From contig NC_053400.1 of the NCBI RefSeq assembly GCF_016859285.1, forward strand, positions 25,442,001 to 25,506,000: 64,000 nt of DNA, read 5' to 3'. Under the pieces are notes generated by a model. The model was not told where the DNA came from. It ran no database searches and worked only from the letters and a program-made list of their open reading frames with translations. Shown here piece after piece: positions 1-24,400 of this stretch; position 1 is the stretch's first letter, and each line of letters starts with the position of its first letter. A program made the position numbers and the translations under genes. The stretch comes from Xiphias gladius. Taxonomy: Eukaryota > Chordata > Actinopteri > Istiophoriformes > Xiphiidae.

Positions 1-1040
1 TCCAGTCCTGGACCACACCACGTTTATGCGCCTGTTCGTGGATTTTACACACGGCATCATAAAGCTCTCTCCCTCGACGGCTCTGTAGTGCTGATGTGTA
101 GTATCCTGCCGAAGACCTATGAGTCCTGCAGTTGCTGCAGAGTCATATGTCTCTTTTTAATTGTACACTCTAAAAAGGAGACACCATTAATAACAATACA
201 ATTTGTGTTTAAAGTAATTACCTGGTCGTTTGTTTTGATGGTTTCCCATACAGCATCCGTCCAAGACAATGGGAAAGATTAAACAAACCAGAATGTATCC
301 GGTTTGCATCCTGTCTCTCTAAATCTGTAAAAAAAAATCTCATTTAATTAGGTCATGATGCTGATCAAATCAGTCTTCCTTAAATGTGAGTGTTTTTTCT
401 AATGTTTACTCATGCATAACCAGATCTAGAGTTGTTGTATTTCCTCCTAATTGTCGGAAGTGCTTGTTCCCCGTCTCTTGGGTGGTGACTCTTTAGGTGC
501 AACATTTTCACAGGACATATAAATGTTGTAGTAGGTGGTATCATACAGTTTCCTGTTGAGTTGTTTTTCTTGATTTCCCTAGAAACTGCCACTGAAGTGA
601 TATTTGTCTTCCTGGTAGTTGTTAGCCACTTCCTATGTGAATGCATTTCTTAGAATTGCTGTGTTATATTTTACTGTTCTATGGAGGGAAACCCTAACCT
701 TAGTAGGTTAGGCAGATTTTTCAGAGGCATGCTTTTTAAAACAATGAAATTTAGACGACAATAATAAAGCAAGATACAACACAGTTTTCTAAGATTAAAG
801 TTAGAGACCACACACATGATGCACATTCCCTCTGCTTTAACATGTGGTAAGTACAAAGGAGTCTTCAACAAAATACTTTCTGAAAGCACTGCAGACCACA
901 ATGTATAATAATCAAAAACCAAGCCAGTCAAAATGCAGATATTGACCCAGATAAGTTGTATCTTAACTACCACATATTGGTTAGCCCTACTTACCACATG
1001 TTAAAGCAGAGGGACTCTCTGAAGACTCCTTCAACAAAAC

Positions 1041-1072
<32 letters not shown>

Positions 1073-1518: not shown

Positions 1519-2125
1519 TGTTAAAGGAATAGCTCAACTTTTTCAAAAATAAACATATTCACTTTGAGATGAGAAGATCAATATCAATCTAGTTACAGAG
1601 CTGGAAATGGACGCATTTAGCCTAGCTTAGCATAAAGACAAGCAGGGGGACACAACTAGCCTGACTCTGCCCAAAGTGAAAAACTATGGAAACCAACACT
1701 CATTTTTTTTAAAAATGTACATAAGCAGAAATATAAAAACATTTTACCCATTTTACTGTTATTCTGGGCAGGATCTCTTGTTAGTAATCTGATTGCCAGA
1801 TATGGCTGGTGGGCAGGCTTTGGTTCTTGTCTCTGTACAGGTACAATGGTACCAAACCTGGCAATCTCACTGTGACGACAGGACTCTGAGCAGTTACTGC
1901 ACCCAGCTGCTGTTTGCTAATGAAGAGGTCCAGCACTCACCACGCAACCAGAAATTATAGTTTTTACGTTTCTGCTTGTGGATGGGTTAAACAAACATAG
2001 ACACAATGAGTTTATTAGTGAGATTTAGAGGTGATGAAAGGCGTGTTTTTGAGCTTTAGACAGAACCAGGCTCGCTGTTCACCCGTTTACAGTCTTTTTG
2101 TTAAGTTAGGCTAACCATTTCCGGA
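1519..2125. mobile_element. Foldback repeat family 1, copy 1
   Basis: Left arm begins AAAGGAATAGCTCAAC and contains TAGCATAAAGAC and CTAGCCTGACTCTG. The right arm (about 2025-2125) is the inverted version (CAGAACCAGGCTCGCTG, ACAGTCTTTTTGTTAAG). A non-autonomous element with long imperfect inverted arms and no coding capacity. Confidence 0.7.
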
Positions 2126-3245
2126 CCCCAGAAAACGAATACACATATTTCCTTTTAGCTGTTAAGGGTCATTAGTTAGCAAACAATTGTCTACTTACAC
2201 ATCCATCAGAAACCAAGCAATATCAACATTCATTTGGATTCACAATTTTGGCCACCTGGACATTCACTGGCATATTGCTTTGTCATGATCTCCAACAACT
2301 ACCTAAATAATAATCTGGGTCCTATTCTATTTGTGACAACTAAGCTACTCAGTAACTTTGTCTGTCTGCTGGACGGCTAGTGCACAGTTGGTTTACCAGA
2401 GTCCATTTGCTGGAAACTGCAGACACAACCGTAAAGGAAATGTGCATAATTGTGCTGAAAGTACAGTTGTAGTCTGGTGATAATTTTCAGTGGGTTTTAA
2501 TATAAAATATATTGAATAATGCAGGTATAAAATGATATGCCATTTATTTTTAAGTACAGTTCTAGCCTAGGGCATCACAGTAGCACATATGCAGTAAAAG
2601 CAGTTATAGAGGAAATGAATGGTGAGGATGAAGAAATGATGAAGAGCAGCATGACAGTGACAGTAAGGATATTAATGTGGGTAAAGAGAACAGAGCTTGC
2701 ATGTTCAAAAACAAACATAGGTAAATGTTTTCCACAGAAGACCTACATATACACAATGGTTGGACAAGAGATGCATAATAAATTATGTAAATCCAGTTAA
2801 ATCACTTAAATATAAAAGTGGGATTTTAATTCATTAGCCAGTATGGAAAGCAACACTTCAACTGTAAAGAAAATGTACGAGTTGGACAATTCTGGATATG
2901 TCAGTATTAACAGTGTAAAGGCTTGTGCGGTAATGTATAAGCTCATATAATAACAAGAAGCAATTTTACATTTTCATATTACTTTCATTCATACTTCAAA
3001 GGTCTTTGCAGCTGACAGGTAAAGTAGCTTGTGTCAGTGTTCTGTCTTACTAAAGGAGTTTTTTCCTGAAAAAGGAAACATATCTTTGGCAATTCAGAAA
3101 TACAAGATGTTATATGGAAAAATTAAGACACTACACTTAAATGTTACAAAATGAAAGTTCAATATGAATTCTTTATTTTAACTACAGAATACTGTACAGG
3201 ATGGTGGTGAAGATGGATATGACATTGACTAGTAAACCCAACTTG
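2126..3245. other. Intergenic, 3' flank of IL-1R copy A
   Basis: AT-rich, no gene recognised. On the minus strand AATAAA at 3177-3172, 79 bp past the stop codon, is a candidate poly(A) signal for copy A. Confidence 0.5.
3172..3177 (-). terminator. Candidate poly(A) signal of IL-1R copy A
   Basis: AATAAA on the minus strand, 79 bp downstream of the stop codon. This would give a short 3' UTR; more distal signals are possible. Confidence 0.4.
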
Positions 3246-3255
3246 GCTAAACATT

Positions 3256-6200
3256 TTACCACAACGCAACATCCTGAATTGTCTGTGGTAAAAGCCTCAT
3301 TTTTGGTGCGTGCTGTGGCACAGGTAGGTGATAACGTAGCTGCTTCCAGAAGGAGGAGGATGGTGGCATGGAGCTTACGCCCTTCCAGGTGACACAGTCT
3401 CCAGCCTCAGTAAGAAGATGTAAGGCCTCGTGTAAGGAACCTGACATCGACATTTCAGTTGTCTCAGTTTTGATGAAAATCAATCGAGTCTGCCGCTCCA
3501 CAAGGGCTGCATGGATGGCACTCAGCAGTCCAGACCCTGGACCAGGATCTGGAGAGGTGGGAACCAAAACCACCGTCCGGCTCTGCTCTGTGCAGTCTAA
3601 CACTGCCTCTGCTGCAGCTGCAACCAACCAGAGCTCAGATTACACATGACTTCATTAATATTTTTAGGTCAGTTTTCTTCAAAGTATCTTTTAAATACGC
3701 ACCTTTCCCTGGTAGGACATCACGATCATAAAGACAGAGACGGTAACCAAACGTCTCTTCCAAAACACTCTCCAGCCATCTTCTGTCATGAGCATTTAGT
3801 CCTTCATCTGTGTCGCTCTTATAATACATCAAAAAGGCATCGTAGCTTTTTCCATCTAATTAAACAACAACAAACCACAACAGCTCTGTCACTGCTGTCA
3901 AATTGTCTGCAGAAACAAGCATGAATGTATCTCTAAACTATAAGCTGCTAGTTAAAATGAAACAAATAGCCAAAAATATGACTCCCACCTGATCCGCTGC
4001 TATGGCAGCCAAGAGTGTCTCTTAGGAAAAGCGTGATGTCAATTTTCAACTTCACATAGATAACTAATGCCACAGCCATTACCACCAAGATGCCCACAAC
4101 GCTGAGAGCCAGGGAAATGTATGAAGGGCAAGCTGCAGGGTAATAATGGAGAAAGTAAAATTATTAAATGGTAATTTAAACACTCAGTCATTTGAATGTG
4201 AATATTATGTCAAACTGATACATGAATTCACTGATTAAGTGACAGAAAATTATGACTTTTTTTGACGAATAAAATCATTATTTTTTTATCTAATTAATTA
4301 ATCAAAAATAATAATAAACTAACTGAGCAATAAAGTAAATAACTAAAAAAGTACCACTAGGCAAACCTTTTTTGATCAGAGTGATGGTGACAAAGCTTGA
4401 GGTTTGGTAGACAGTTTCCAGTTTACAGGTATAATTTTTTGATAGATCCTCCTCCGACACCTTTCTGAAGACCAGAGATGCTGTCATCTTTATTTCTTCA
4501 GCATTATTTTCCCTGGAAAACAAATGAAAGGACATAATACTGGAGGATTAGGAAAGACAAGCTATTTTATGTGTGTGTTGAGTGTTCATGTGGCCGTGTG
4601 TGACATTGGCAAATTTGTTGTAATAGTTGTGCTGTGCAGTGTTTACCGTGTGCAATTGTAGAAAACTGATAAGTTGGCCTTTTTGTCGACAAATGATTTC
4701 CCACTCAACCAGAACACCCCGTCAAAGTCCGAATATGTAACAGCTTTACAATCAATCACCACTGTTGAGCCTAGACAAAGCAGTTCACAAACACTTTAAA
4801 AGTAGTAATTTGGAAAGGTAGGAAATGTTCATATGTGTATCCATGCTACAAGATTGAAGCTCACCCAAATCTACATGAAATACATCATTCTTGCGTGGCG
4901 AAACGATTACTGCAGTTTTCTCCGATTCTGCGCAAAAAAGGAGAAAACTCTTTACACCTTTTTTTGAACATATGAACTTCAACTTCAAGATAAACATATC
5001 GATAAAGTGTTTTTCTTACTCTTTGGTTTGACATCAAGTACCACTGTAAAGGTCATATTGTATGTTTGTCCATGATACAGGTAAGATCTGGTACAGGTGT
5101 AAACACCGTGGTCTTTCTCTTCCACACTTGAGAAGTAACCGTCTTTAGACAAAGACTCACCCTCCTACAAGATGAAAAATGAGTTGAATTTTTAAGCATG
5201 AAGTTACTGAAAACCAGCCTCAAATGAATGGAAGACACATTTAAAGTCCAAAAAAACTACAGTATACTGAAGGGTAAAAGTTAAAAAATGGATACATAGA
5301 TTTGTAAATCTAATGGGTTAAAACATGCTGTCCCCACCAGACCACATGTCTACAGCTTCTAATTATAAAACCAGATTGCATTCACAGTCAAAAATCTGCA
5401 GTGTAAAATTACCTTGTGCCATGTGATGCTGTTACGGGTAATATTCGGGATATTTTCAGCAGGGATATTTACATCTGGGCAATTCAATTTGCAGGACTCT
5501 TGTGCGTAACATGTCTTAGAGTACTTGGTCCTCTCTTCATACTCTCTGGACTGTGCTGTGTTTACTGTCAGCATGAACCATAACTGGCTGCTGACATTCC
5601 TGTCATGTCATAAAAGAAACAATTATATAAACATACTGTATGAAGGTTTTTCACTTCACATTTATATCGCAGCAACTCACTCTGAATGTGGAAGTAAAGA
5701 AAGCTTTAAGGATCATTTTCCAAAATTTTTCATAGTTTTTCCAAAATACAAAAATGTTCCTCTTATCCGGTGTGCCAAAGACGCAGCATTAGAAGAAACC
5801 AGGATAGCTTTGTCAACCCATTGTGACGTATTTGGACTTAAAACATAGACTTTGAAGGAGGCGTCCCTTGACATGGCATGTGGCTATTGTCTTACATTAC
5901 TAGCTGGCTGTGTACAAAGCTATCCAGTGCTGTAATCTCACAGAAAGAAACAAAAGAAAAAAGAGCTTTAAGTATTCACAGTACATTCACGAATCAATGT
6001 AATCGAACACGTCCCTCTGCATGACAGTGCAGCAGAGTGTCACAAATACCAGCGAATCCCATTTATGAAAAGACATTATGTTGCTGTTTTAGAACTATTA
6101 TACCAGGGAGAACGGATGTCTGCGGCAGACATCTCCTGGATGACTTGCCTGGATGGCTGACAGATTAAAAATGCACAGATTCTTGTCCTTGCTGATGCGT

Positions 6201-9200
6201 TCGCTTCCCATAATTTCTGCAGATTTGTCAGCTGCACATTCATGCAGCGAATCTCCCGTTCTACCACATCCGAAATATGCGCTACTGGATCCAGATCGAT
6301 CTGGTGACTGCGGAGGCCACGGAAGTACACTGAACTCACTGTCATGTTCATGAAATCAATTTGAGATTTTTTTTAAGGGGCCCAAAGTGTGCCAAGAAAA
6401 AACTCCCCACACCATTGCACCACCACCACCAGCCTGGACTGTTGACACAAGGCAAGTTGGGTCCATGGATTGATTCATGCAGTTGATGCCATATTCTGAC
6501 CCCTCCCATCTGCTGCCTCGGGAAAAATCCAAATTCATCCGGCCAGGCCACGTTTTTTCAGTCTTCAGCTGTCCAGGTTTGGTTAGCCTGCCGCTCACTG
6601 AATGTATTTTGTATGCGGCATCATTCCGAGTAAACTCAAGAGACTTTTGTGCGTGAAAATCCTCGGAGATCAGGAGTTTTTTCACAAATACTCAAACCAG
6701 CCTGTGGCGACCAACAATCATGCCACTGTCAACATCTCTGAGATCACATTTTTTTCTTCATTATGATGTTTGATGTGGCCATTAACTAAGGCTCCTGACC
6801 TGTATCTACATGATTTTCTGCACTGCACTGCTGCTACATCATTAGCTGATTGCATGAGTAACCTGGTGCATAGGTGTTCCTGCTTAAGTGCTTGGGGAGT
6901 GTAGGTACAGCCTTGTACAGTGTCAGACTGAAATATGAAAGCTTACACTGTATAAATTAATTTTTAATGATAAGGAAACATAATCTTAAGATATTAGGAT
7001 ATAAAACAAAGTCAGGATCATTGTAGGACTGACAGGTATTTACCCCAGAGAGCAAGAGTAATTCCCCTGATGATTTTCAGATGCACTGAGAATAACAAGG
7101 CTCATCCCATAAACCTGCACTCCCATCTGCCTCTGCTCAGCTGATGACATGTTGGTCAGATCCACCTCCTGGGTGGCATAACTGGTCCAGATCGGTTTGG
7201 CATCACTGTTATGATTAATGTGAGAAGGGCACTGCAGCGCCACCATCTCACCTTCCTTGACACATATCTCCTTGTGTCTCGGGCGGCACGCACCTGTCAA
7301 AGAGTGTCACAAATGTTAGCTCATTTTACTGTGTAAAACTGTAACATGAACTGACCTGTGGACAGCTAGAACTAAATGTCAAAGATGTAATTATTGTATT
7401 GTTGTATCACAGAGATATGTGGCTGGTTAAAACCAGTACCAGCCGGTGTCCTGCCCACTGTTAAACTGAGGCTCGCACGCAAACTGATCGGTTTATCTCA
7501 CTGTCAATCAACAAATCAATAGCCCTGGTCCTTATGTGCAGAACGAGTTAGACCTCTGGTTGTAACCCTTCTTTGCATGTTCTTACGGGGATCCAAACGA
7601 CATGTGAGCATCTAAGTGCGGTTGTGTCTCTTTCTCTGTAAGGGGTAAGAGGTCGTAAAGAGTTCACTAAACAGCTGCCTGTGTTATCAATGGTAATGAG
7701 GCTCATACTTCCTGTCAGATTCACCAGAAGTTTAAGCTGATTCCACTGATTGTTTGGATTACTGTTCTGTACTGAGCTATCATATTCAAACCCTCCAGAA
7801 CTCTGATAAAATGCTTTGTTTGGTGAATTTATTTCTGGGCAAACCTAAATTCTACACTTACATAATCAATCACAAATCTTGACCACAACTACTATTATGT
7901 TTCTCTGAAAATTACATGTGCAATAAGTTTGAAGTTAATAAGAATCTTTGAAGGGCATATGACTTGAAGTAGGACAAAAATACTGTTTATTAATTATAAT
8001 TATTATTTATTATTAATTATAATTATTATTAATTATTCATTATTCATGTCTATTAATTAACAATTTACTGCCGTCAACCAATCAGAGATTTCCTTCAATT
8101 AGGGATGTAGATTGGTTTGTTAAAGCAAGTTGACCGGCTATAATATAACAATTTATTTTAAAATGTATTTTAAAATTTGAATGATACTGACAACAGTAGA
8201 AGTTTGCCTCTTTGTGAAACAGCACGAGCTTGGCTGATCCCTCCATTCTTAGACTGAACTGTAGGGGTGGCTAATAAGTTACCATGATCTAAGGGATCTG
8301 GTTGGAACATATCGTCTGATGAACTTGCTCAGGTAAACAGGGGTAAGGCCATGGAGACGAAACGAAGGATCTTAAAAATCCATTGTAAAAGACAAAGGCA
8401 GCCAGTGCAAGGCTTTAAGAGCCGGACTGACGTGGTCTCTCCTCTTGGTTCAGGTTAAGATTCTTGCAGCAGTGTTTCGTACCTGCTTTAGATGTGGAAC
8501 AGTGGTCTAAGAGAGACCGGTCAACAGTAATCCAGTCTAGCTGACACCAGAGTATGTGCGTTTCTTGCTCTCAGCTAAGCAACTGCTATAAATCAAGAGT
8601 GGGGGTTCTTAACCACATCCTAGTTTCTTGGTGTCCATGAGTCTTGTGATTTCAGTGTGAAGGAAAACGGGTAAGGTTTGTGGAAAGCAGCACTTGTCGG
8701 TGCATTAAAGAAAAGATATGTGTTGAGATGTTGAGTGCCAATGTATTTAAAATGTGAGTGTATATAATATTTGCATAATGTGTCCATGCTTTAATTACAT
8801 CTGCATGTGACAGTGTAGCACAGAAACAACAGCCTCTGCTGTTATTATGATTTGTGGCTGCCAGGATCACTATGCTCATAAACCATATTAATTTTCAGCG
8901 GTTTTGTCCAGTTTAATTAATTCACATGATCTACAGTTTTGAGGTCCTTGTACTTTGCTTGAGTTTATCCATTTTTATTCTTGTACTCCACAACAATTCA
9001 GAGGCAAATATTGTACTTTTTACTCCACTACATTTATAACTTTAGTTAATAGTTACTTTGCAGATTCAGATGAATCATACAGAATATAATCACTGACTAG
9101 ATTATAATGTATTATTATAGGTTAAAATAAGTACTTTTACTTGTGGTACTTTAAGTCTTGTTTTTTTTTTTAACTTTTATTTGCGCTTAAGTAAAAATCT

Positions 9201-9597
9201 TGTACATTTCTACAACGTATTGTTGCCTTCACTTAAATAAGATATGTGATACCTGATGCTGTGTTACAAGCTATTTATAGTTGAGTATGTACTTCATTGT
9301 TATGTTTTTTTTTTTTTTGCTTTTTTGCTTTTCTGTGTCCATGTCTCCTTGGACTGAATCAAGGTTTTTTTTTTGGTTCTTCTTTTTCTTCTTCCTCTAT
9401 TTTGCTTTTTTTTTTTTTTTTTTTTTTTTTTTGGTTTGTTTGTTTTTTGTTTGTTTGCATGGAGACGTGCGTTATTTGGATCTTCTTTTTTTGTGTGTGA
9501 CTAATCCCTTATCGTCCTTTCACACCATTAAGAGCATTCTCTTACCTGTTTTTGATGTAAGGAGGAGAATCAGAGGGAGCAGAAGTACTTTCACCAT
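3256..9597 (-). CDS. Interleukin-1 receptor family protein, copy A (IL1R1-like, Ig-Ig-Ig-TM-TIR)
   Basis: Type I membrane cytokine receptor that should bind an IL-1-family ligand outside the cell and signal through a cytoplasmic TIR domain. Ten coding exons, all with matching phases: 9597-9546, 7293-7044, 5599-5413, 5164-5020, 4927-4865, 4770-4647, 4512-4367, 4132-3989, 3855-3703, 3617-3256; 1626 nt, 541 aa. Seen: signal peptide (residues 1-17, leucine-rich), Ig1 (about 18-105), Ig2 (about 125-210), Ig3 (about 215-320) with paired cysteines and many N-glycosylation sequons, a membrane helix (about 327-350), then TIR box 1 (YDAFLMY), box 2 (DRDVLPG, 414-420) and box 3 (FWKQLRYH). Length is normal for the family. 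The FWKxxRYHxP end and the juxtamembrane KIDI motif resemble IL1R1 more than IL18R1 or ST2, but the subtype is inferred. It is the left member of a tandem pair. Intron 2 carries a Tc1-like remnant that copy B lacks. Confidence 0.9.
4370..5727. repeat. Near-identical tract in copy A (gene-conversion-like)
   Basis: Exons 3-7 and the introns between them match 17343-18618 almost base for base, apart from a roughly 70-bp segment (about 5287-5356) missing from copy B and some small differences. Similarity drops sharply at both ends, inside intron 2 and at the end of exon 7, whereas flanking introns are hard to align. Confidence 0.75.
6070..6690 (-). mobile_element. Tc1/mariner-like transposase remnant
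   Basis: Lies in intron 2 of IL-1R copy A, same strand as the gene. Two pieces of a Tc1-type transposase are readable in different frames: GGGGAMVWGVFSW (6350-6690) and LDPVAHISDVVEREIR with NVQLTNLQ (6076-6351). Frameshifts and a missing middle make it inactive. Copy B has no counterpart, so it was inserted after the duplication or lost from B. Confidence 0.85.
6691..6905. repeat. Dispersed repeat fragment
   Basis: Block with the common fish repeat pattern GACCTGTATCTACATGATTTT and GGTGTTCCTGCTTAAGTGCTTGG; a related tail (ATTAGGTACACC, GCAATAAATCCTACC) is at 13438-13520. It ends close to the Tc1 remnant and may belong to a nested insertion. Confidence 0.55.
8230..8560. repeat. Dispersed repeat fragment (fish LINE-tail type)
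   Basis: Contains GTGCAAGGCTTTAAGAGCCG, TGACGTGGTCTCTCCTCTTG and GAGACCGGTCAACAGTAATCC, a block I recognise as very common in teleost genomes, probably a retroelement fragment. No intact reading frame. Confidence 0.5.
8935..9245. repeat. Dispersed repeat family 3, copy 1
   Basis: Rich in GTACTTTTACT/AAGTAAAAGTAC motifs, with the string TACTCCACTACATTTATAAC, shared with the other family 3 copies in this window. Confidence 0.6.
9405..9432. repeat. Poly-T tract
   Basis: About 28 T's in a T-rich block (9306-9490). On the receptor's strand it is a poly-A tract, perhaps a retroposed tail. Confidence 0.8.
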
Positions 9598-10061
9598 CTT
9601 AAAAGCCTGCAGCACTGTGCACCAAACATTCAACAGCGTTGTCAAAAATGTGCTCTGAACAAACAGCCCCCAAATGCAGCTCTGATACAGCTGTGCATTG
9701 CCCTAAAGTTGTGAATCATATTGCGTGATGATAGAAGTGAAACTTAAGGAAATGCGTGACATTGTCGCTGTCATGTAAACACCCCCTGAATCTCCAATAT
9801 TACTATTATTAGCGTCATCATTTTTTGTATTCATTTATGGACTAATTGTTTATTTTGAATATACCTTTCTTGATGCTGAGTTTTTCCCTTCTGTGATAAA
9901 TGCAAACAATGAAAATCCAACTTTAAAAACATCTCATGGTGCAGTTTCGTGTCATCCGCAGTGAGATGTGGAAACGGGGCAGGGGAAACACGCGTCACTG
10001 GCTGCGCAAGTGTGCAACCAGAGGAAACAATAAGGCACTGACTAATTCATTCCTTGTGATA

Positions 10062-10205
10062 GGGAGTCCACTGGGGACTTTGACCGTCTCTCAGCAGAAG
10101 TTGGACTTAGAGAACAAGCTGACAGTGATCCAACGACACATCTGGCCCGTGGCCGGGACACTGGTCCAGTCTCTGTATTCAAAGCAGGCCAGGCCACGGG
10201 CCATG
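10062..10205 (+). pseudogene. Degenerate copy of ccdc81 exon 3
   Basis: The stretch encoding SQQKLDLENK, then VIQR and LVQSL, aligns with ccdc81 exon 3 (22298-22451), including the GGTGAG donor. It lacks about 9 nt near the start of the exon and has many substitutions. Intronic DNA shortly after it (10328-10361) also matches ccdc81 intron 3 (about 23130-23170). No other ccdc81 exon was recognised nearby. It sits just upstream of IL-1R copy A, in the same relative place that intact ccdc81 holds beside copy B, so it is a leftover of the tandem duplication. Confidence 0.85.
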
Positions 10206-10479
10206 GGTGAGCGCAGCAAACAGGGTATCCCTATAAAGAATGAATAAAGGATAAAGAGAGCAGGGGAATGAAATTAAAGCAGAGCAGGGGCAGGATAAGA
10301 TAGTCATTAGTAGCTCGCACTTGGTTCGGATTTGAATCTTACAGCGAGGGATCAGAAAGAAGCTGGTTTAAGAATTTCTTTGGACAAAATAAAGAATATC
10401 AATACTTGTTAAATCTGTGCAGTTTGCTGTTGTATTTATGCAGTGAACAAACAGAATATATCATTGAAATGTTATTACT

Positions 10480-10719
10480 GACACGTGTAACCAGCATTTT
10501 AATATTGTCAAAGTTTAGCTAATTTTAACAAAATATACAATTGGGTATTTTAATCTATAATAGTATGAACTGATCACAGTTTTTACTTAAAATATTTATC
10601 TAAAAAGTAACTATGGTTGTGAAATAAAGTGGAGTAAAAAGGGCAACATTTCCCTCAGAAATGTAGTGGAGTAGAAGTATAAATTATCATAAAATTGAAA
10701 TACACAAAACCTCAAAACT
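10480..10719. repeat. Dispersed repeat family 3, copy 2
   Basis: AT-rich DNA with GTGGAGTAAAAAGGGCAACATTTCCCTCAGAAATGTAGTGGAGTAGAAGT-type strings shared with 19840-19900 and 39360-39420; adjoins the LINE remnant. Confidence 0.6.
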
Positions 10720-11955
10720 GTTGTCTAGTACAGTACTTGAGTACATGTACAACTGCAAAGATGAGCATATCTTCGATAAAATTCAGTCTGGCTGCCGCCG
10801 CTTGCACTCAACAGAAACAGCTTTTCTCAGAGTCTCTAACGATATTTTGATACACAGTGATGCAGGAGAATGTTTCGTGTTGGTGCTGTTGGTTCTCAGT
10901 GCTGCTTTCGATACTGTGGACCAACGTATCGTGTTTGCAGTGGTTCGTTTCCTACCTCTCGGATAGGAGAAAATCGGTTTCTGTTGGCAGTTTTGCCTGC
11001 TCATCTGAATTTCTGTATTGTGGTGTGCCCCAAGGTTCAGTCTTTGGTCCTATTCTTTTCACCTTGTATATGCTTCCCCTTAGATAATAGGGCACTTTAA
11101 AGGTATCTCCCATCACTTTTATGCAGATGACATTCAATTACATTTCTAATTCAAATCTCAAAACATAGCCAAATTGTAAGTTTTAAATACTATTTGAATA
11201 AAAGACTGAATGGTTGCTAATTTCTTACAGCTAATTGCTGAAAAAACTGAGATCTTTACTTCTGCCCCTCCTAGTGTTGTCCCTAAAATAATGGATGGTC
11301 TATGTGTCTCTAGGTGTCACAATGGACCAGGCTCTGGACCAACATGTTCAGTGTCTTATTTGCTTGTTTTCTCCAGCTGAGAAACATTGTAAAGCTCAGG
11401 CCCCTTGTATCTCAAGTGGAAATGGAAATGTTAATCCATGCTTTTATATTGTCCCGTCTCGACTATTGCAACTGTCTTTTAAACTGCCACGGCAAAACAT
11501 CCCTGGATCGTTTACAAGTTGTCCAAAATGCTGCTGCTAAGCTCTCGACCAGGTCCCTCAAAAAGTCTCATGTGACACTGATTCTAATTACTCTTCACTG
11601 GCTCTCCATCAAAATCCGAATCCAATTCAAAGTCCTTGAGACCACCTATAGAGCTCCTTTGCTGGTTGTTCCTGCAGCAAGGTTTTAAACTAAAAGAGAC
11701 TGCACTTTTGAGGTTGTGGCTCCTAGACTTTGGAACTGTCTCCCCTGGAATTCAAGATCTGTGGACACATTTAAAAGGTAGCTCAAGGCCTACTTGTTTA
11801 GGCTTGCCACTGTGTAATTTTTCTATTTATTCTGATTTTTATTACACTTTATGTCTGTATATATGTCTTTTTTTTTTTTATCTCTGTAAAGCACTTTGTG
11901 ACATCTCTGCTCTTCAAAGTTGCTATATAAATAAAGTATTTTCTTACTTACAATC
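10720..11955 (+). mobile_element. L2-like non-LTR retrotransposon remnant (reverse transcriptase and 3' end)
   Basis: Frameshifted pieces of a LINE reverse transcriptase: QSGCRRLHSTETAFLRV and LSAAFDTVD (10780-10930), GVPQGSVFGPILF (11020-11070), FYADDIQL around the catalytic Asp pair (11118-11145), SRLDYCNCLL and LDRLQVVQNAAAKL (11450-11550). A block before LLVVP is deleted. The 3' end has the L2-type tail GTAAAGCACTTTGTGACATC and GCTATATAAATAAAGT (11885-11945). Inactive and 5'-truncated. It separates the two duplication units. Confidence 0.88.
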
Positions 11956-12854
11956 CACCACTGCATTTATGTACATATCCGTATCTGCAACACAACTAAC
12001 AGTGTATAGGTGAAAGTCACAGCTGTGTCTCACAAGTGATTCATTTCATGATTTCATTTCTGCTCTTCATCCGACCTTTGGGATCTGAATAAATTCATAT
12101 TTTAAACTTTAAAGGAAGCAGAAATATGTATTAAAAACACAAAATTGTTTATATTTTCAGATTTTGCTTCATCATTGCTTTAGTTCTTGTGAATAACTAG
12201 ATAATTGTTAGAAAGAAAAAAATGCTCTTTGATTGAACTGGCAAAAATCAAAGAGCATATCAGGATAAAAGATAGACAACCAGTTGACATTGCTTCATTT
12301 TGAGGTGTGACAAGCTAAAACCACTTCTTTGAAGTAGTCCGGTGATATAGTACTGAGTCAGGGGACTCACCACAGACAGACCAAGTCCGAGATATCCTCA
12401 CTTATAGTCCTACACTTGGTCCTACCCTTCCTATAATGCAACATTGATGAAATTATCAGGGGTTATTTTCAGAGACTTGAATAAGCTTCTCCTGAGCCAC
12501 AGCAGACATTATACAACCTACTGGATGCGACTGAGTCGTACTCCCCAATATAGTTTGACCTTTATCTGTAAAATCAGTGGAATTTCCACTTGAGCACAGC
12601 GACACTTGGCTTACATTCTATATTTTGACTTAGCGCTTTCAGTTTGTACTGATTTATTTTTGGCAAATGTCACATGATCCATGTTCTTTCTTCATAAACA
12701 GTAGTTTATAACATTGCAGCATTACACCACCTGGCACACCAGTCATAACCACACAAACCACACTGTAGCTGACAGACAAACTGACAGCAGCATCAAATTA
12801 ACTAATAACTAATTCTTGTATAATAGCAATGTATAAAATGGTGAAACAAACTTG
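11956..12854. other. Intergenic, no gene recognised
   Basis: AT-rich. Contains a perfect 12-bp stem (12222-12233 with 12247-12258, ATGCTCTTTGAT) around a 13-nt loop, probably a short palindromic repeat. Confidence 0.5.
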
Positions 12855-13250
12855 ATAATGTGAAAGGGGTCGCTTGCAGTGATGAACGTACAGACAATTA
12901 TAACCTGAATCTGCAGCTCCCCTCAGCTCCACGGAGCCTTACAGTGGGTTTCAAGTCATTGTTTGGCTCTCTGGCCCACAACTTTACTCGTCACTTTCCC
13001 TGCCCACATAGCATGGTTTTTGGTCGTAGCAGGAAGCTGTTTTCTGTGAAAAGGCTCTAGAAATTCACAGTACAACACCTACTCAGCACCAAAAAGGAGA
13101 CAAACAAAGTTAGAGACTAGCCGGTGAACACAGTGGAACAATTAGCAGCAAAAGAGCCAGATGTTTCCCTCAGGAGTTGATAAAGACCAAAAACAGAACT
13201 CAAAGGGAGTGAAAACTGGACTTACACCAAGTGGCCAGAAACATGACTCA
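12855..13250 (+). mobile_element. Dispersed repeat family 2, copy 1
   Basis: Begins near GAAAGGGGTCGCTTGCAGTG and includes CTGCAGCTCCCCTCAGCTCC, ACTCAGCACCAAAAAGGAG, GACTAGCCGGTGAACA and GGAGTTGATAAAGACCAAAA, in the same order as the copies at 26690, 36440 and (inverted) 33085. No coding capacity. Confidence 0.7.
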
Positions 13251-16164
13251 TAATTTTATAAAATGTTGATGTGTAAAAGAGCAGTTTCCTAACAATCACA
13301 TCGCATCCTCTTAAAAAGTGAAAGGTGGTTCAAAGTTGTAATCCTTAAGATTTTCATGAGATCAAACCCTGTTTTTGATGCTATTTAAGGTTGGCATTTT
13401 TCAGCAATAGCCATTCAATGTCCAGTCAGTTGGCAGTTAATTAGGTACACCTACTGTCCTGCAATAAATCCTACCTCCAGGAAGGTTATGTTGTTCAGTT
13501 TTTATATGGTGCCGTTGAATTGTATTGCAGACAAGTGTTTCTATTGTTTTAGTTCACCCCATGTATATCTGAGGGTAGGCTCGATAACAGACAAAAACAA
13601 ACGCCTCCCTGTGTAATGCAATACAGAGAGGTGTCAGTACTATTGCAAACCAAACATTTCCTACTGCTGCAGCTTCACATTAAAAGTGTTCAACTAGTAA
13701 AGAGTATGGCCACAGTGAGCTACACGTGACCACACACCTCTAACTCCACAGCACGGTAACAAACTCTCTTCACCGTGCTCTGCTGTTGTGTGGACAACTA
13801 CTCGCACCATGTGCAGCGTGAAATCAGATCGCAGTTCCAATTATTACTGATAGGCTGTTTTTTATGTATTAAAACAATGTGAGTTCTTAGGCTGTGCTGA
13901 TAGCAGATACACCGGTTGAGCTTCCGTTGTATCTGTGACAAAGTAGTAACAGTTGTTGCCAAATCAACCAGGACTGAAATTTCAAGGATCACATATATTA
14001 ATCATACTTCGATAGCAAGGCCTTGTGAATGGGCTAATCTGCAGGTTGGCACAAGAAGGTCCACCCAAAGATTCTTTTCCTGCCCGTTTCTCACCATAGC
14101 AGGGCAATATATTTCACCTTTACAATTCTGGAGGGATCACAACATTAGGCTCAGTTTACAAGGCTGGATTACAAACCAGGCACAGCAAGCAACTACCCAG
14201 GGGCCCCAGACCCCCAGGGAGAACAAGAGCCCCAGTTTCACTCCATATCGTTTCTGTCTACATAGTTTGATTAATCGCAAATTTGTTGTAAATTTTTACA
14301 ACTGATGTAGGATACCAGTTACGACGGGTCCTTTGCTTTCCATGTTGTGGCCCTGGTCTTGTAGAGGGACCCTAAGTCAAAATCTAGTTTTAAGACCTTC
14401 ATTGTTTTAGTTTATATTAAGATCATTATTTGTTATGTTGTGTTTCATCATAATACTGCCATTAACACACAGCAAGCAAGGTAGTATTTCTCCATCATGG
14501 GTATATAAACAATTCCATCATGGGTGCATAAGGCTGCAAGCAACAATTATTTTCATTATCAATAGGTCAGAGAACTATTTTCTTTAATAACTGACTGTTA
14601 TTTCAGTGTGTAAAATGACAAAAATAATGAAAAATACCCACCCTTATTTCCCTGAAGTCCACGTTTACATATTAAGAATGGTTCATTTGTCTGACCAACA
14701 GTCAAAAACCCAAAGATGTTCCCTTTACTATAATAGAAAATTGGGAAAACTAGAAGCTGGTATCAATGAAATCAGATCACAGTTCAGAGAGGGGGCTTGA
14801 ATATGCAAAAAAAACTTTCACTAACCTTCCATGACAACAGTTTTGACTGTTTCAAGCATCAAATTGAGCAGACTTTGAAAGTTAAAGGTTCATTTTACAG
14901 TTATGGCAATACAGTATATTCTGTGTTTCAAAGGAGTCATTCTTTGAAGCTGCACTTATTTTTTTGTCCAGCAGGTGGGAGAAAAACATCAAATAAGCTC
15001 ATCATCATGCTCAGTTAAACTTAATGAGCAATCACTGGCCTACTTACACAGAAAACAGGGAGAAACAATGTGTTCTCTGCCACCTGATGAATAGAAGTTC
15101 AATATTCACTGGCCTTTTGACTCAGCTGTGATCTTGGGGAAAATATCTGGGTCCTTAGCTGACAAATATTCCGCTTTCTTCACTTGTTTACTGTTTGCTA
15201 TTCGATGCTGAGTAGGTAGTGTTAGGTTTGGTTTATCAGAGCTTGTTTGCCAAAAAGGGCTTGGCTGCCTTCGGGGAGTTCATGAGAACATCCGACAGTG
15301 AAAAATACGGTAAATTGTCAAAATGTAAAATTAAAACAATATACCACAAGAGGCTAAACCATCCAACCCTTTCACGTTACACATACTCATTTCATATTTT
15401 TGATATCAAAAACATTTATTAATGCAGGTTTGAAAGAACTGGTACAAGCGAAATTACAGAAAAGTGCAATTTTAACAATTTAGGAGGATATTGACCTGGG
15501 GAAGTGGGCCTGGAGAAGCTCACCACTGCACATTTTCCATCTTTCCCTGCAGTGCTTAGACCTGATCAGCCTTTTTGCACTAAAGACATTTTTAGACGTC
15601 ACAGAAAGAAAGGCTGACGTATAAATAATCAAATTAATGATGGCTGAATTCCATTGAGCTGCTTCATTCTCAGCGTCCTGGTATTATGCATGCTGGCTCA
15701 CCTTCACACTGTCATAACCTACGGGTTGTTAAAGTTACAACACAAACCACGATGACAAGTCAAAATCTGTGTTTAAAAAGGCCTATTTGCTCAATGGCAT
15801 GTGCTCAGTCAGTCCAGAGCTGATCGGGTGTGGGCGGATTGGGTAGAGATGGAAGACATGTAGTGCTGGGGCTCACCCGGATTGGGCACCACTACACTAA
15901 GGTGTTGCTTTTCATGATATATTGAGTGGTAAGTGGTAAGTTGAAGTTATAGGGTTGACTAGAAGTTACAGGGTTGAAGGAGGAATGGGCGGCATCATGA
16001 GAACAAGACCAGTAGTTCCAGTAGTAAGTAAGGAGCTTCAAAAACTATTTTAGGCAAATTTTGAATCCCAGAATTCAAAATCTTAGAAATATATGTAGTT
16101 AGTTTTAATGTGATTTAAATGTATACTTATGTAATATACTAAAAACTGTGATATGATATATTCA
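13251..16164. other. Intergenic, no gene recognised
   Basis: Includes a repeat tail (13438-13520) and other AT-rich DNA. The 14161-14245 stretch with CAGGGGCCCCAGACCCCCAG looks like another dispersed repeat scrap. No reading frame has the look of an exon. Confidence 0.5.
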
Positions 16165-16184
16165 TTCTGACTTTGCTAAACATT

Positions 16185-19100
16185 TTAACAATGATCATCC
16201 TGGGCAGCTGTCTGTGGTAAAAGCCTCATTTTTGGTGCCTGCTGTGGCACAGGTAGGTGATAACGTAGCTGCTTCCAGAAGGAGGAGGATGGTGGCATGG
16301 AGCTTACGCCCTTCCAGGTGACACAGTCTCCAGCCTCAGTAAGAAGATGTAAGGCCTCGTGTAAGGAACCTGACGTCGACATTTCTGTTGTCTCAGTTTT
16401 GATGAAAATCAAGCGAGTCTGCCGCTCCACAAGGGCTGCATGGATGGCACTCAGCAGTCCAGACCCTGGAGCAGGATCTTGAGAGGTAGGAACCAAAACC
16501 ACCGTCTGGCTGTGCTCTACGCAGTCTAACACTGCCTCTGCTGCAGCTGCAAATAACCAGAGCTCAGATTACACATTACGTCATTAATATTCGATTCAAA
16601 CTATACAAGGAGTAAATTATGTTAATGATATCTATGTCAATATAATGCAAAACTTATTTCATTATTAGGAGTACGATACGTACCTTTCCCTGGTAAGACT
16701 TCATGATTGTAGAGACAGAGACGGTAACCGAACCTCTCTTCCAAAACACTCTCCAGCCATCTTCTGTCATGAGCATTTAGTCCTGCATCCGTGTTGCTCT
16801 TATAACACATCAAAAAGGCATCGTAGCGTTTTCCATCTAATCAAATAACAACAAACAATTGTCCAGCAGGTCACAGCCATGCTATCTCAGAAATGGATAC
16901 TAGTAAAGGTAGAAACAAAATGGATGCCTGCTCCAGCACAACCATGCAATTGTGGGAAAAATGAGATCCTGTGATACCAAAGTTATTTGAAACAAATTGC
17001 CAAAGATATGACTCTCACCCGAGCCACCGCTATGGAAGCCAAGATTGTCTCTTAGGAAAAGCGTGATGTCAATTTTCAACTTCACATAGATAACTACTGT
17101 CACAACCATTACCACAATGATGCCCACAATGCTGACGGCCAGGTAAATGTACAAAGGGCGAGCTGCAGGGTAATAATGGAGAGATTGTTATAAACATTAA
17201 ATAAACTTTACAGATAACACTTTAATGTTGCTTGAATGTGGTTTGAGCTTTATGATAGTTTACTGAACACAACACTGCTGCAAACAACCATATACAATAG
17301 TAAAGCCAAAGCTAAGCTCTGTTTATCTATCTTACAAACTTTTTTTGGCCAGAGTGATGGTGACAAAGCTTGAGGTTTGGTAAACACTTTCGAGTTTACA
17401 GGTATAATTTTTTGATAGATCCTCCTCCGACACCTTTCTGAAGACCAGAGATGCTGTCATCTTTATTTCTTCAGCATTATTTTCCCTGGAAAACAAATGA
17501 AAGGACATAATACTGGAGGATTAGGAAAGACAAGCTATTTTATGTGTGTGTTGAGTGTTCATGTGGCCGTGTGTGACATTGGCAAATTTGTTGTAATAGC
17601 TGTTTACCGTGTGCTGTTGTAGAAAACTGGTAAGTTGGCCTTTTTGTCGACAAATGATTTCCCACTCAACCAGAACACCCCGTCAAAGTCCGAATACGTA
17701 ACAGCTTTACAATCAATCACCACTGTTGAGCCTAGACAAAGCAGTTCACAAACACTTTAAAAGTAGTAATTTGGAAAGGTAGGAAATGTTCATATGTGTA
17801 TCCATGCTACAAGATTGAAGCTCACCCAAATCTACATGAAATACATCATTCTTGCGTGGCGAAACGATTACTGCAGTTTTCTCCGATTCTGCGCAAAAAA
17901 GGAGAAAACTCTTTACACCTTTATTTGAACATATGAACTTCAACTTCAAGATAAACATATTGATAAAGTGTTTTTCTTACTCTTTGGTTTGACATCAAGT
18001 ACCACTGTAAAGGTCATATTGTATGTTTGTCCATGATACAGGTAAGATCTGGTACAGGTGTAAACACCGTGGTCTTTCTCTTCCACACTTGAGAAGTAAC
18101 CGTCTTTAGACAAAGACTCACCCTCCTACAAGATGAAAAATAAGTTGAATTTTTAGGCATGAAGTTACTGAAAACCAGCTTCAAATGAAGGGAAGACACA
18201 TTTAAAGTCCAAAAAAACTACAGTATACTGAAGGGTATGTCTACAGCTTCTAATTATAAAACCAGATTGCATTCACAGTCAAAAATCTGCAGTGTAAAAT
18301 TACCTTGTGCCATGTGATGCTGTTACGGGTAATATTCGGGATATTTTCAGCAGGGATATTTACATCTGGGCAATTCAATTTGCAGGACTCTTGTGTGTAA
18401 CATGTCTTAGAGTACCTGCTCCGCTCTTCATACTCTCTGGACTGTGCTGTGTTTACTGTCAGCATGAACCAGAACTGGCTGCTGACCTTCCTGTCATGTC
18501 ATAAAAGAAACAATTATATATACATACTGTATGAAGGTTTCACTTCACATATATATCGCAGCAACTCACTCTGAATGTGGAAGTAAAGAAAGCTTTAAGG
18601 ATCATTTTCCAAAATAGAGTAATTTGATGGATTGCAGTTAAATTTTGTGCATTCATGTCCCCCTCAGGATGATTGTGCTAGCTGATGATGCATACTTTTT
18701 CTCTAGCACCGTCATCGGGTCTAACTTTTAATTTGTCCATACTTACGATCTTTACTTACGATACTTTACGATCAAATACCTGTAAAACTAATGACATTCC
18801 CAAGAGCAAATACATAAAACATATAAACTTTGTCTTCATTGAGATATAACTGCTTATAGAAATAGTGACGTGAAACCTCATCCATTAGTCATCTTTGTCG
18901 GTTTTTTTTCAGCTAGCCAAAAAAAGATTTTTAGGAATATAATCTGATTCATCGATGAACTACTCATGCTACATAGTCATTCTTGTTACAAGAGAGTTCT
19001 AGAGTTATTTTTCACGTTAGGAATATTTGGTCATTACCCCAGAGAGCATGAGTAATTCCCTTGATGGTTTACAGATGCGCTGAGAATCACAAGACTCCTG

Positions 19101-20272
19101 CCATGTACGAGCACACCCATCTGTGACAGGTCAGCCGATGACATGTTGGTGACAAACATCCTCTCGGGTGTGTGACTCGTCCAGACCAGTTTGGTATGAC
19201 TTTGATTATACCCTGTGTAAGGGCACAGCAGCGCCACCACCTCGCCTGCCTTTGAATGTATCTCGCTGTGTCTTAAGGGACACACGCCTGCAAAAGAGTC
19301 CAACAAATTTGATTTCATTTTACTGTGTGAAACTACAACATGAACTTGTTTGTGTACACGGAGAATGAAATCTCCAAAATATCATTACTGTATGCTCACA
19401 AAGCCACTGAAATGTGGCTGGTTAGTCATTTAATCAAATTATCTATCAATGACAATTTACTGCTGTCAACCAATCAAATAATTTCTTCAACTTGGGAGTT
19501 AGATATGAAAACTGACTTCCAAGCAGAGCTAAGCATGTCCTGGCCGCCGCTTTGTATTGAGAGTGGTATCGATCTTCTCACCTAACTCTTGGAAATAAAG
19601 AGAATGCGCACATTTCCCAACATGTGCCACTTTTCTTTTGGTGGTGATAACATTGACAGGATATGTTAAACCTAACGGTAAAAGTATTCATCGTGCAAAA
19701 TATCGGGCCCTGACAGTGACATATCTTAGGAGCTAGTTTGAACTAATTTATACGAGGTTAGGTAGTTTAGTCCAGTGGTTCTCAACCGACTGGATTATTC
19801 AGGATAAACCTGAGGGGTCCTTAGAAGAAAAAGTCATTTTCCCTCCGAAATGTAGCAAAGTTGAAGTCAAAGTGGCATTAAATGGAAATGCCCAAATAGG
19901 AAATAAAGCACAAGTACCTCAAAAAAGTTCAGCACTCAGGTGAATGTAGGCTACTTAGTTACTTTCCACCAGAGCATCTTTATTATTAGTGCACTCATGT
20001 AGAACTATAAATTTAATTACACCCACTGAAACTCGATGTAAGGTAGGTGGAGGTTATTATAATATCATCATTATAATATTTTATATATTTATTATATTTT
20101 ATATTAAATATTTAACACCACATAAAGTCTCGATTCGCCTGTTACAACCAACAGATTTACACAGTATTCGAAGTGCGCGAATGCCATTCATAACAAACCT
20201 CGACGACGTGGTCATTTTCTTACCTGCCAATGATGTAAGGAGGAAGAGCAGGGGTATTTTCACCGTCGTCAT
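16185..20272 (-). CDS. Interleukin-1 receptor family protein, copy B (IL1R1-like, divergent TIR box 2)
   Basis: Tandem paralogue of copy A with the same ten exons and, apart from exon 1, identical exon lengths: 20272-20224, 19287-19038, 18490-18304, 18125-17981, 17888-17826, 17731-17608, 17485-17340, 17162-17019, 16836-16684, 16546-16185; 1623 nt, 540 aa. Signal peptide starts MTTVKIPLLFLL. Three Ig domains, one membrane helix and a TIR domain are present and the frame is open throughout. Ig2-Ig3 (exons 3-7) are almost identical to copy A, whereas Ig1 is only about 60% identical and the membrane exon about 73%. TIR box 2 reads NHEVLPG (413-419) instead of DRDVLPG, losing the usual Arg-Asp pair; box 1 has Cys in place of Tyr. 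The exon 7 donor (A|GTTTGT) is weak and lies 4 nt from a better GTAAGA site. Head-to-head with ccdc81, with an IRF-type element upstream. Reduced or altered signalling is an inference. Confidence 0.9.
17343..18618. repeat. Near-identical tract in copy B (gene-conversion-like)
   Basis: Partner of 4370-5727, covering the Ig2 and Ig3 exons with their introns. Confidence 0.75.
18640..18800. repeat. Dispersed repeat family 4, copy 1 (intron 2 of IL-1R copy B)
   Basis: Contains CCCCCTCAGGATGATTGTG and TTTTTCTCTAGCACCGTCATC, matching the other family 4 copies (for example 35170-35230). Absent from copy A. Confidence 0.6.
19533..19628. mobile_element. Foldback repeat family 1, solo right arm
   Basis: GTGGTATCGATCTTCTCACC and AAATAAAGAGAATGCGCACA match the end of the right arm of the 59883-60505 copy. 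Confidence 0.6.
19785..19985. repeat. Dispersed repeat family 3, copy 3 (intron 1 of IL-1R copy B)
   Basis: TCCCTCCGAAATGTAGCAAAG, AAGTACCTCAAAA and TACTTAGTTACTTTCCACC match the other family 3 copies. Confidence 0.65.
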
Positions 20273-21419: not shown

Positions 21420-24400
21420 ATGGCTGACATACTGCGGCTGGTGTCAGAAGCAGACAGGCGGACTTTACCTACACTCTCCCAGCTCTCTGAAAACGGTCGG
21501 ACAACAAAACGTTTTGGTGACAGTGTAGCAAACTGTTCTTTCAGCTGCTGGTAGTTTACACACTGCTAATAACGTGCGCATATGTGTCAATCACGACATT
21601 TCCATGTCGCCATATAACCAAACTTAATGTGTTTTTTCAGATATTGACTGTATTTGGGCTGATGTATCCGCCTACATTGAACGTCAGATGACCTTACAGA
21701 AGGCTAGTCTACCTACCTACCTACCTACCTATCTATCTACCGACCTACCTATCTACCTACATATCTATCTACCTACATATCTATCTACCTACATATCTAT
21801 CTACCTACCTATCTACCTACATATCTATCTACCTACCTACCTACCTACCCACCCACCCACCCATCTACCCACACATCCATCCACCCACATATCTATCTAC
21901 CCACATATCTATCCACCCACCCATCCACCCACATCCATCCACCCACCCACCCATCCACCCACACATCTATCTACCTACATATCTACCTACCTACCTATCT
22001 ATCTACCTACATATCTATCTACCTACATATCTATCTACCTACATATCTATCTACCTACCTACCTACATATCTATCTACCTACATATCTATCTACCTACAT
22101 ATCTATCTACCTATCTACCTATCTACCTACCTATCTATCTAACTACCTATCTACCGTTCTATCTATCTATCTATCTACCTATCTACCTACCTACCTACCT
22201 ACCTATTTATCTATTTATCTATTTATCTATTTATCTATCTACCTATCTACCTATCTACTTATCTATCTATCTGAAATTGATTGACCTCTTTAAATAGGGG
22301 GTCCATCTGGCAGGACTGGGTACTTTCACCTTCTCGCAGCAGAAGTTGGACCTAGGAAACAAGTTCACAATGATCCAACGACCCATCTTCCTCCTGGCTG
22401 GGAAACTGGTCCAGTCCCTAGGTTTAAAGCAGACCAGGCCACTGGCTGCAGGTGAACACATATCAGTTGGACATACAGGAATAATTTGACATTTTGGGAA
22501 ATACACTTCTTTGCTTTCTTGCCACGAGTTAGATGAGAAGGCTAATACCTTTTTCATATCTGTATCGTAAATGTGAAACTACAGCAGCCTGGTTATATTA
22601 GGTTACGACAAAGACTAGAAACAGAAACGGGGGAAATTTGGGGGGGGGGCAAGACTATTTCGTTGCAGACTAAGAGGACAATAACAAACTTAAGTTGCCA
22701 GGCAACCAACGGAAACTCCAAGAAGTCCCTGTGTCTGGCCAATAAACTGACTGGCACATAACCTCACGTAAAACCACAAACTTTCATTTTCACACATTTC
22801 TTAAAATGTTTTTTCAAGCATATTTAATAACTTAGCTAGATAGGTTAGCTTAGCATAAAGAATGGAAACAGGGGAACACAACTAGCCTAACTTTGTCCAA
22901 AGGTAACAAAATCCATCTACCAGCACCTCCAAAGCTCACTAATTAACATATTATATCTTATTTGTTAATTCTGTACAAAAAGCAAAGTATAAAAATGACA
23001 AATCACAATTTTATAGTAGTAGTTAATACAGTAGAAGCTTCATATTTAGCGTACAACACTGTACGTTTTTTTTTTTTTCATATCCTGGTGAATTATAGCT
23101 GCACTGATAGAAATAGAGATACAGTATACGAGATTTGGATTTGCATCTTACAGTGGGGTGGATCAGAGAGAACTGTGTTTGACACATTAACAAAAAAGCA
23201 GTGAGGATTTGTGTGTGTGTGTCCCTTGCAGCAACACACCTACCAGTGGTGCAGCTAAACTTTACAGCCGTGTCACAAGAGACTCCTTTCGGTCGAGACG
23301 TAGTGGAGGGCTGCATTAAAGAAACTCTTCTGCTCCTCTTCAGAGGTTTGGCCTCGGAACAAAACATGTTTATCACCTTCCAGGGAATTGGAGTTCTGTC
23401 CTTTCATAACAAGAAGGTGGCTCGGTTGCTCTTATTTCTCATGCTCTGATTCACATCGTGGACTTTGACAGCTGGGTTTTCATTAAATCTAATCCCATTT
23501 GATGTATTTCAAAGGTCCAGATGAAATTCAACAAAGATTTTGTTAATGCCATGGATGGAACTGGTAGGCTGCTGTTAGCCTTCAACAATGTGAGTTTGAA
23601 TAATTGCATGTGTTTGCATGTTACAGTACATAATGAATGTACAGTATTGTATGTATTCATATAGGTCACTGGTACTTTTGCCTCTTCAGAGACCTGGCAG
23701 CAGTGTCTCTTTACTGTCCGGTGAAGTGTCCAAGCTTCAGAGGCCCCAGACATCCAACCCCTTCACCCTGCCACCTGTCTGTTCTCATCAGCCAGACAAC
23801 AAAGCCGGTGACAAAGATGGATGGTGCTTGTCTCCAGCTCCAGACAAGAGGAAAGCTGGAGGTGAAAGAGCCTTTTACACAAGGCTGACAGTTAGGTTTG
23901 GGGTTTGATTACACTTTAATGAATCTAAATTAAAAAATGAATCCCCATCGCTCCATCTCATCAACTTGCTGCACAGAAAACAGACATTTGTTCCTCACTG
24001 TGAGGCTGAGCCGGAGCTGCAGTGGCTGCAAAAGCTGAAATAAACATGATATTAATTCGTTTTTATCATATATGCAATGTGTAACTGCTTTACCTGTTTA
24101 GAGGAGTAGTCATCTTTGTCACTTTGGAAAACAAGGCTTATTTGGTTTCTTCCCGTAAGGTTAGGTGACCCTTTAAAATGAAACTACAGCCGACGGCTGA
24201 AACGTTAGCATAGACTGGAGGAAGGGGGAAACAGATAGCCTGGCTCTGTCCAACGGCTCACTAATTAACACGCTGTATCTCGTTTCTTTAATTCGTACAA
24301 AAAACTAAGTGTAAACATTACTGTTAGGGAATCTTCTATTGGGTGGGCCTTGAGGTCTCAGCCAAAAATGCAGCAAATCTTTCTGAAAAGCACACTGTAT

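Follow-up and report, generated by a model that had tools for sequence, protein, structure and literature searches.

A tandem pair of IL-1 receptor family genes in the swordfish as a probable case of interlocus gene conversion

In the neighbouring innate immune receptor genes TLR1 and TLR6, gene conversion homogenises a defined block in nine mammals, which has been attributed to their common binding partners (Kruithof et al. 2007, PMC2077338). PILRA/PILRB and EMR2/CD97/EMR3 are further immune receptors shaped by duplication and gene conversion, the PILR genes forming inhibitory and activating partners and EMR2 being a maintained mosaic (PMC2077338). Here, we describe a tandem pair of interleukin-1 receptor (IL-1R) family genes, copy A and copy B, in 64,000 nucleotides of the swordfish Xiphias gladius (NCBI RefSeq assembly GCF_016859285.1, contig NC_053400.1, positions 25,442,001 to 25,506,000 of the forward strand). 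This whole stretch is the window, and positions below are counted from its first letter. Like TLR1/TLR6, the swordfish genes are tandem innate receptors in which one block has been homogenised, very probably by gene conversion, and in which the part presumed to discriminate between ligands diverges. The homogenised block of TLR1/TLR6 consists of the C-terminal leucine-rich repeats, the membrane segment and most of the TIR domain, whereas that of the swordfish pair is the Ig2-Ig3 core of the ectodomain, and the former was demonstrated in nine mammals as opposed to a single genome here (PMC2077338). The PILR and EMR2 genes differ from the swordfish pair in belonging to other receptor families, and copy B retains a TIR domain with a changed box 2. 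Within fish, Shaw, Gao and Wiens (2018) are said to have described tandem il1rl1 alpha/beta/gamma genes in rainbow trout, which would likewise be tandem IL-1R-family receptors, in three copies instead of two. In the titles and the beginnings of abstracts in the open-access literature, we found no report of gene conversion in an IL-1R-family pair, nor was gene conversion named among the matches listed there for tandem fish IL-1R genes.

Both genes are encoded on the minus strand by ten coding exons and have open frames without stops after splicing. The exon boundaries were placed by hand on GT-AG sites. Copy A (3256..9597, 541 amino acids) comprises exons 9597-9546, 7293-7044, 5599-5413, 5164-5020, 4927-4865, 4770-4647, 4512-4367, 4132-3989, 3855-3703, and 3617-3256, and copy B (16185..20272, 540 amino acids) comprises exons 20272-20224, 19287-19038, 18490-18304, 18125-17981, 17888-17826, 17731-17608, 17485-17340, 17162-17019, 16836-16684, and 16546-16185. 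Exon 1, for which a scan for a hydrophobic start and a splice donor in the correct phase returned one candidate per gene interval, is 52 nt long in copy A and 49 nt in copy B, whereas exons 2-10 have the same lengths in both (250, 187, 145, 63, 124, 146, 144, 153, and 362 nt). Pfam Ig and TIR matches exceeded the cut-off in both copies, with three Ig regions in copy A and two stretches of Ig_3 in copy B, one of which was placed. With a signal peptide predicted by the hydrophobicity and splice-donor scan and one membrane segment judged by eye, both proteins have the layout of the IL-1 receptor family, namely a signal peptide, three Ig domains, a membrane segment, and a cytoplasmic TIR domain. 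Their matches in the PDB were IL-1R2, IL-1RAcP, IL-18R1, IL-1R1, ST2, and IL-18RAP. The initial annotation, whose span 3256..20272 runs from the stop codon of copy A to the ATG of copy B, had recognised a tandem IL-1R-family pair with equal lengths of exons 2-10, and the gene models and Pfam domains agree with it on both counts. Intron 2 of copy A also holds a transposase relic (6076-6691, minus strand), presumably Tc1-like, with no counterpart seen in the far shorter intron 2 of copy B, and another relic, which we take to be reverse-transcriptase-like, lies between the two receptor genes (10667-11688, plus strand).

Divergence between the two copies changes markedly along the gene. In exon 2, which encodes Ig1 (7044..7293 in copy A and its counterpart 19038..19287 in copy B, minus strand), 50 of 84 residues are identical, the synonymous divergence (dS) is 0.586 ± 0.143, and the nonsynonymous divergence (dN) is 0.276. 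In exons 3-7, encoding Ig2-Ig3, 212 of 221 residues are identical, leaving nine differences and none at all in exons 4 and 5, and dS is 0.037; silent divergence is thus about sixteenfold greater in Ig1 than in the block. The introns follow the same partition. At aligned bases, identity is 97.8% in introns 3 and 4, 100% in intron 5, and 99.2% in intron 6. Introns 2 and 7 are unalignable, reaching the background level of 51-52% in a forced global alignment, and introns 8 and 9 show 66% and 79% identity. Downstream of the block, dS is 0.154 in exon 8, the membrane exon (35/48 residues identical), and 0.185 in exon 9 (43/51), amounting to 0.168 for the two together and 0.10 for exons 8-10. Exon 10, encoding the TIR domain, has 107 of 121 codons identical, the stop counted, and a dS of 0.056, but is itself uneven: dS is 0.031 in codons 1-40 and 0.042 in codons 41-110, where 68 of 70 residues are identical, while only three of the last ten residues agree. 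Fisher tests on silent differences, for which synonymous counts were rounded, separated exon 2 (23/56) from the block (5/140) with p = 2e-10, and exons 8-9 (10/66) both from the block (p = 0.007) and from exon 2 (p = 0.002). Exons 8-10 together differed from Ig1 with p = 1e-6 and from the block with p = 0.039.

These values reproduce the earlier estimates of about nine residue differences in exons 3-7 with matching introns, of about 60% identity in exon 2, and of about 73% in the membrane exon. The initial annotation had also called for an exon-by-exon comparison of synonymous divergence, naming uniform divergence as the outcome that would speak against conversion; what we found was 0.586 against 0.037. 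Its proposal that Ig1 and the cytoplasmic part were both free to diverge stands for Ig1 but cannot be maintained in this simple form for the cytoplasmic part, because dS is 0.10 across exons 8-10 and drops to 0.03-0.04, as in the block, over two large parts of the TIR exon.

The near-identical block extends from the end of intron 2 through exon 7 (4362..5726 in copy A and 17335..18615 in copy B, minus strand), with 1256 of 1281 aligned columns identical when three pieces of copy A that copy B lacks (70 bp in intron 3, 12 bp in intron 6, and 2 bp in intron 2) are set aside. The 25 substitutions are spread over exons and introns. Similarity sets in suddenly at position 5726 of copy A, within intron 2, and ends at 4362, adjoining the end of exon 7, so the abrupt borders reported earlier are found at both ends. 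Six of the 25 differences fall within the final 53 bp of exon 7 (4419-4367), and the near-identical part proper therefore ends at about 4420. The block thus has the features expected of a conversion tract, namely near-identical introns inside, diverged flanks, and abrupt borders, apart from this accumulation of differences ahead of the exon 7 border.

We assessed the block with shuffle and segmentation tests of our own, which stood in for GENECONV, on three alignable stretches joined into 2552 columns with 241 differences, excluding the unalignable introns. The longest identical runs were 225, 207, 205, 180, and 135 bp, whereas the longest run in 20,000 shuffles averaged 60 bp and reached 163 bp at most. 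Since coding constraint can also create identical runs, the non-coding comparison carries more weight. Non-coding differences amounted to 9/616 in the block, compared with 28/110 in intron 1 beside exon 2 (p = 2e-17, Fisher), 64/252 in the non-coding tail (p = 6e-28), a count overstated by poorly aligned stretches, and 28/139 in a relic exon of CCDC81 beside copy A, described below (p = 7e-15). Segmentation returned a segment with 1.6% differences, flanked by 28.5% in exon 2 and before it and by 10.5% from 4419 onwards. Its 5' change fell at 7067/7066, still within exon 2, because the stretches had been joined; the 23 bp from there to the end of the exon show high silent divergence and were consequently left out of the tract. 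The differences within the block are clumped, as judged from the four longest gaps (p = 4.5e-4) and from the sum of squares (p = 0.011). A second near-identical run, unmentioned in the initial annotation, lies in TIR exon 10 (3311..3445 in copy A, minus strand, with its partner at 16240-16374 in copy B by exon offset); no other run in the exonic tail is as long as its 135 identical base pairs (shuffle p = 5e-5).

CCDC81 provides a measure of the age of the duplication. The gene stands head to head with copy B (approximately 21640..32830, plus strand) and was recognised by PF18289 (HU-CCDC81_euk_2, E = 1e-21) in an exon at about 23230-23420; its remaining exons are presumed from likeness to human CCDC81. 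Beside copy A lies a relic of a single CCDC81 exon (10074..10208, plus strand; tblastn E = 1e-14), which shares 107 of 135 bases with the real exon at 22319-22453 and differs at 28. Of its 45 residues, 30 are identical and 15 changed (dS 0.355 ± 0.124, dN 0.208), and its reading frame is still open across all 45 codons. The CCDC81 label of this exon comes from the homologue at 22319-22453, which precedes the PF18289 exon, together with a PF14908 match that is weak (E = 0.032) and a likeness to the human protein, while Pfam gave no match for the open frame around the relic. We regard it as a relic since its flanking exons were not found beside copy A; a search for the two neighbouring CCDC81 exons found no relic of them in positions 1-16100 of the window. 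A 39-bp piece at 10325-10361, also beside copy A, resembles 23134-23172. We had considered the 132-bp similarity between 10070-10201 and 22315-22446 as a 5' exon of the receptors and rejected it, as the plus strand reads CCDC81. The duplicated unit, to which we assign the relic, probably held the receptor and part of CCDC81. The divergence of the relic is evidence that the duplication is much older than the central block implies, and a young duplication was rejected because the relic and the flanks are too diverged.

We consider it very likely that the mosaic is best explained by interlocus gene conversion of exons 3-7 and their surroundings (block 5726-4362 in copy A, 18615-17335 in copy B), because the inner introns are near-identical, the outer introns are unalignable, and the borders are sharp. 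A tandem duplication of an ancestral IL-1R-family gene, together with an adjoining part of CCDC81, would have come first, leaving the two genes and the exon relic seen today, and the copies would then have diverged. A later conversion, the strongly supported step, would have moved a tract of about 1.3 kb with exons 3-7 and their introns between the copies, and further events, to which the strata of silent divergence point, would have made parts of exons 8-10 alike, either at an earlier time or to a lesser extent. Homogenisation would have spared Ig1, the outer introns 2 and 7, and the very C-terminus. More than one conversion event is likely, judging by the intermediate divergence of exons 8-10, the separate 135-bp run in exon 10, and the clumped differences in the block. 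The initial annotation had spoken of recurrent gene conversion of Ig2-Ig3; conversion itself is well supported by the near-identical inner introns, the unalignable introns 2 and 7, and the contrast in dS, whereas recurrence is indicated indirectly by the divergence strata and the clumping.

Several observations weigh against gene conversion as we propose it. The whole analysis covers a single genome in a single assembly. GC content is not raised in the block (37-38%, compared with 51% in exon 2), which gives no sign of GC-biased conversion and led us to reject it as the driver. The single longest gap between block differences is unremarkable (p = 0.19). There is also no sign of positive selection on Ig1, where dN/dS is 0.47 overall and about 0.68 in amino acids 1-62, and we rejected such selection as an established fact.

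With one assembly, the central block of one copy could have been overwritten by that of the other or could be a misplaced allele, and tandem blocks that are nearly identical are known to mislead assembly. We regard such an artefact as improbable, given that the block of copy A can be told from that of copy B by 25 substitutions and three gaps (70, 12, and 2 bp) in exonic and intronic sequence, and that both genes remain open. In a protein search of the whole genome (690 Mb), with the 30 best candidates scored, no third close paralog or spare haplotype copy appeared among the 29 places listed; the best 18 all belonged to this pair, followed by an il1rap-like gene on C7 (E = 0.0055). This result, with no third close paralog seen in the surrounding 264 kb either, bears also on exon shuffling, by which the copies would be younger twins, one of which had acquired its Ig1 and further parts from a third paralog. 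The dS of Ig1 does exceed that of exons 8-9 (p = 0.002) and, nominally, that of the CCDC81 relic, as exon shuffling would have it, but intron 1 beside exon 2 and the relic are likewise old, and introns 2 and 7 are unalignable, which makes this explanation very improbable. Purifying selection alone would require that Ig2-Ig3 is constrained and the rest relaxed, without any exchange of DNA. Although Ig2-Ig3 would bear the co-receptor contacts, identity at silent and non-coding sites in the block (5/140 and 9/616 differences) is close to that of the protein, an outcome not expected from protein constraint; we rejected this explanation, giving it next to no weight, because the introns are too similar.

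The gene neighbourhood bears on the identity of the receptors. The gene immediately downstream of copy A is IL18RAP-like and continues to the left beyond the window. Its probable Ig1 exon is at 1..156 (minus strand; an open-frame reading), and its TIR piece, on the minus strand 6.4 kb outside the window at about C1:25435.5k, has IL-18RAP as its best match (E = 5.9e-12; next best 2.2e-9). The pair therefore has an IL18RAP-like neighbour on the same strand, as IL18R1 has in the human gene order. Further left of the IL18RAP-like gene is a kinase-like gene, which we take to be STK16-like. Elsewhere in the window are a trypsin-like open frame of 404 codons (55683-56897, plus strand), presumably PRSS23-like, and a TMEM39 gene (PF10271; 61082-63735, minus strand). 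Against human sequences, the TIR domain of copy A scored highest with IL18R1 (213) and IL18RAP (202), followed by ST2, and that of copy B with ST2 (191) and IL18R1 (188), followed by IL18RAP. In the PDB, where not all TIR domains of the family are represented, both were closest to IL-18RAP, and the ectodomain of copy A was closest to IL-1R2 (55 bits, with IL-18R1 at 35 bits). By position beside the IL18RAP-like gene, the pair is probably il18r1- or il1rl1-like. The human IL-18 receptor alpha/beta resembles it in having three Ig domains and a TIR domain (PMC4275594), as well as an adjacent IL18RAP gene. The f-strand cysteine of D1 is replaced in human IL-18R alpha (PMC4275594), whereas both swordfish copies retain it in YSCSLG; the replacement is a feature of the human protein and is not known to hold for fish IL-18R alpha.

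The TIR domains differ at a conserved motif. Exon 9 of copy A (3703..3855, minus strand) encodes TIR boxes 1 and 2, the latter with the RDxxPG motif in LYDRDVLPG. In exon 9 of copy B (16684..16836, minus strand), box 2 reads LYNHEVLPG, with D414, R415, and D416 (copy A numbering) changed to N, H, and E (DRDVLPG versus NHEVLPG), so that HE stands for RD and the motif is absent. RD is present in seven of seven comparators, four of which are human sequences, and in four other family members of the swordfish genome, including those at C1:25432001-25442000 and C16:22908500-22914500. The latter is a TIR region that we take to be IL-1R1-like, and the pair is accordingly not the only IL-1R-type receptor of the genome. 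R9 and D9 of box 2 belong to the IL-1R-family consensus (PMC7075850). SIGIRR, counted among regulatory receptors (PMC3705552), likewise lacks RD in its PDB chain 7fcl, which reads NTNILPG, but it is a single-Ig receptor (PMC7075850), whereas copy B has three Ig domains and an RD-bearing twin alongside.

From its sequence, the loss of RD may alter or blunt signalling by copy B. In the human IL-18 receptor alpha, D1 contributes to ligand Site I, and D2 and D3 meet the co-receptor; Site II would lie on D3, to go by residue numbers (PMC4275594). By analogy, both swordfish proteins would share the Ig2-Ig3 surface, which in the human IL-18 receptor includes the co-receptor face and one of the two ligand sites, and would differ in the Ig1 ligand contacts and in TIR box 2, possibly combining shared partners with a different ligand preference or signal output. 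The initial annotation's picture of two ligand-contact and two signalling variants on one scaffold remains plausible in light of the Ig1 divergence and the loss of RD in copy B. A more specific scenario, which we find rather unlikely, is that the two receptors might form an activating and decoy couple kept in register by conversion, in which copy B, sharing the Ig2-Ig3 co-receptor face, would compete for ligand or co-receptor and damp signalling, while Ig1 would tune the ligand captured. If this were true, copy B would be an IL-1R-family decoy by decay of its TIR domain, unlike IL-1R2, which has none.

In summary, the swordfish pair is a real and well-defined new case of a known process, for which TLR1/TLR6 is the direct precedent and to which box 2 of copy B adds a twist. 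It offers a clean and datable example of two receptors that differ in the ligand-contacting tip and in a signalling motif, whereas exchange seems to hold the middle of their ectodomains alike. The idea put forward for TLR1/TLR6, that conversion maintains the surfaces for shared partners, could thereby be put to the test in the IL-1 receptor family by means of simple chimeras.

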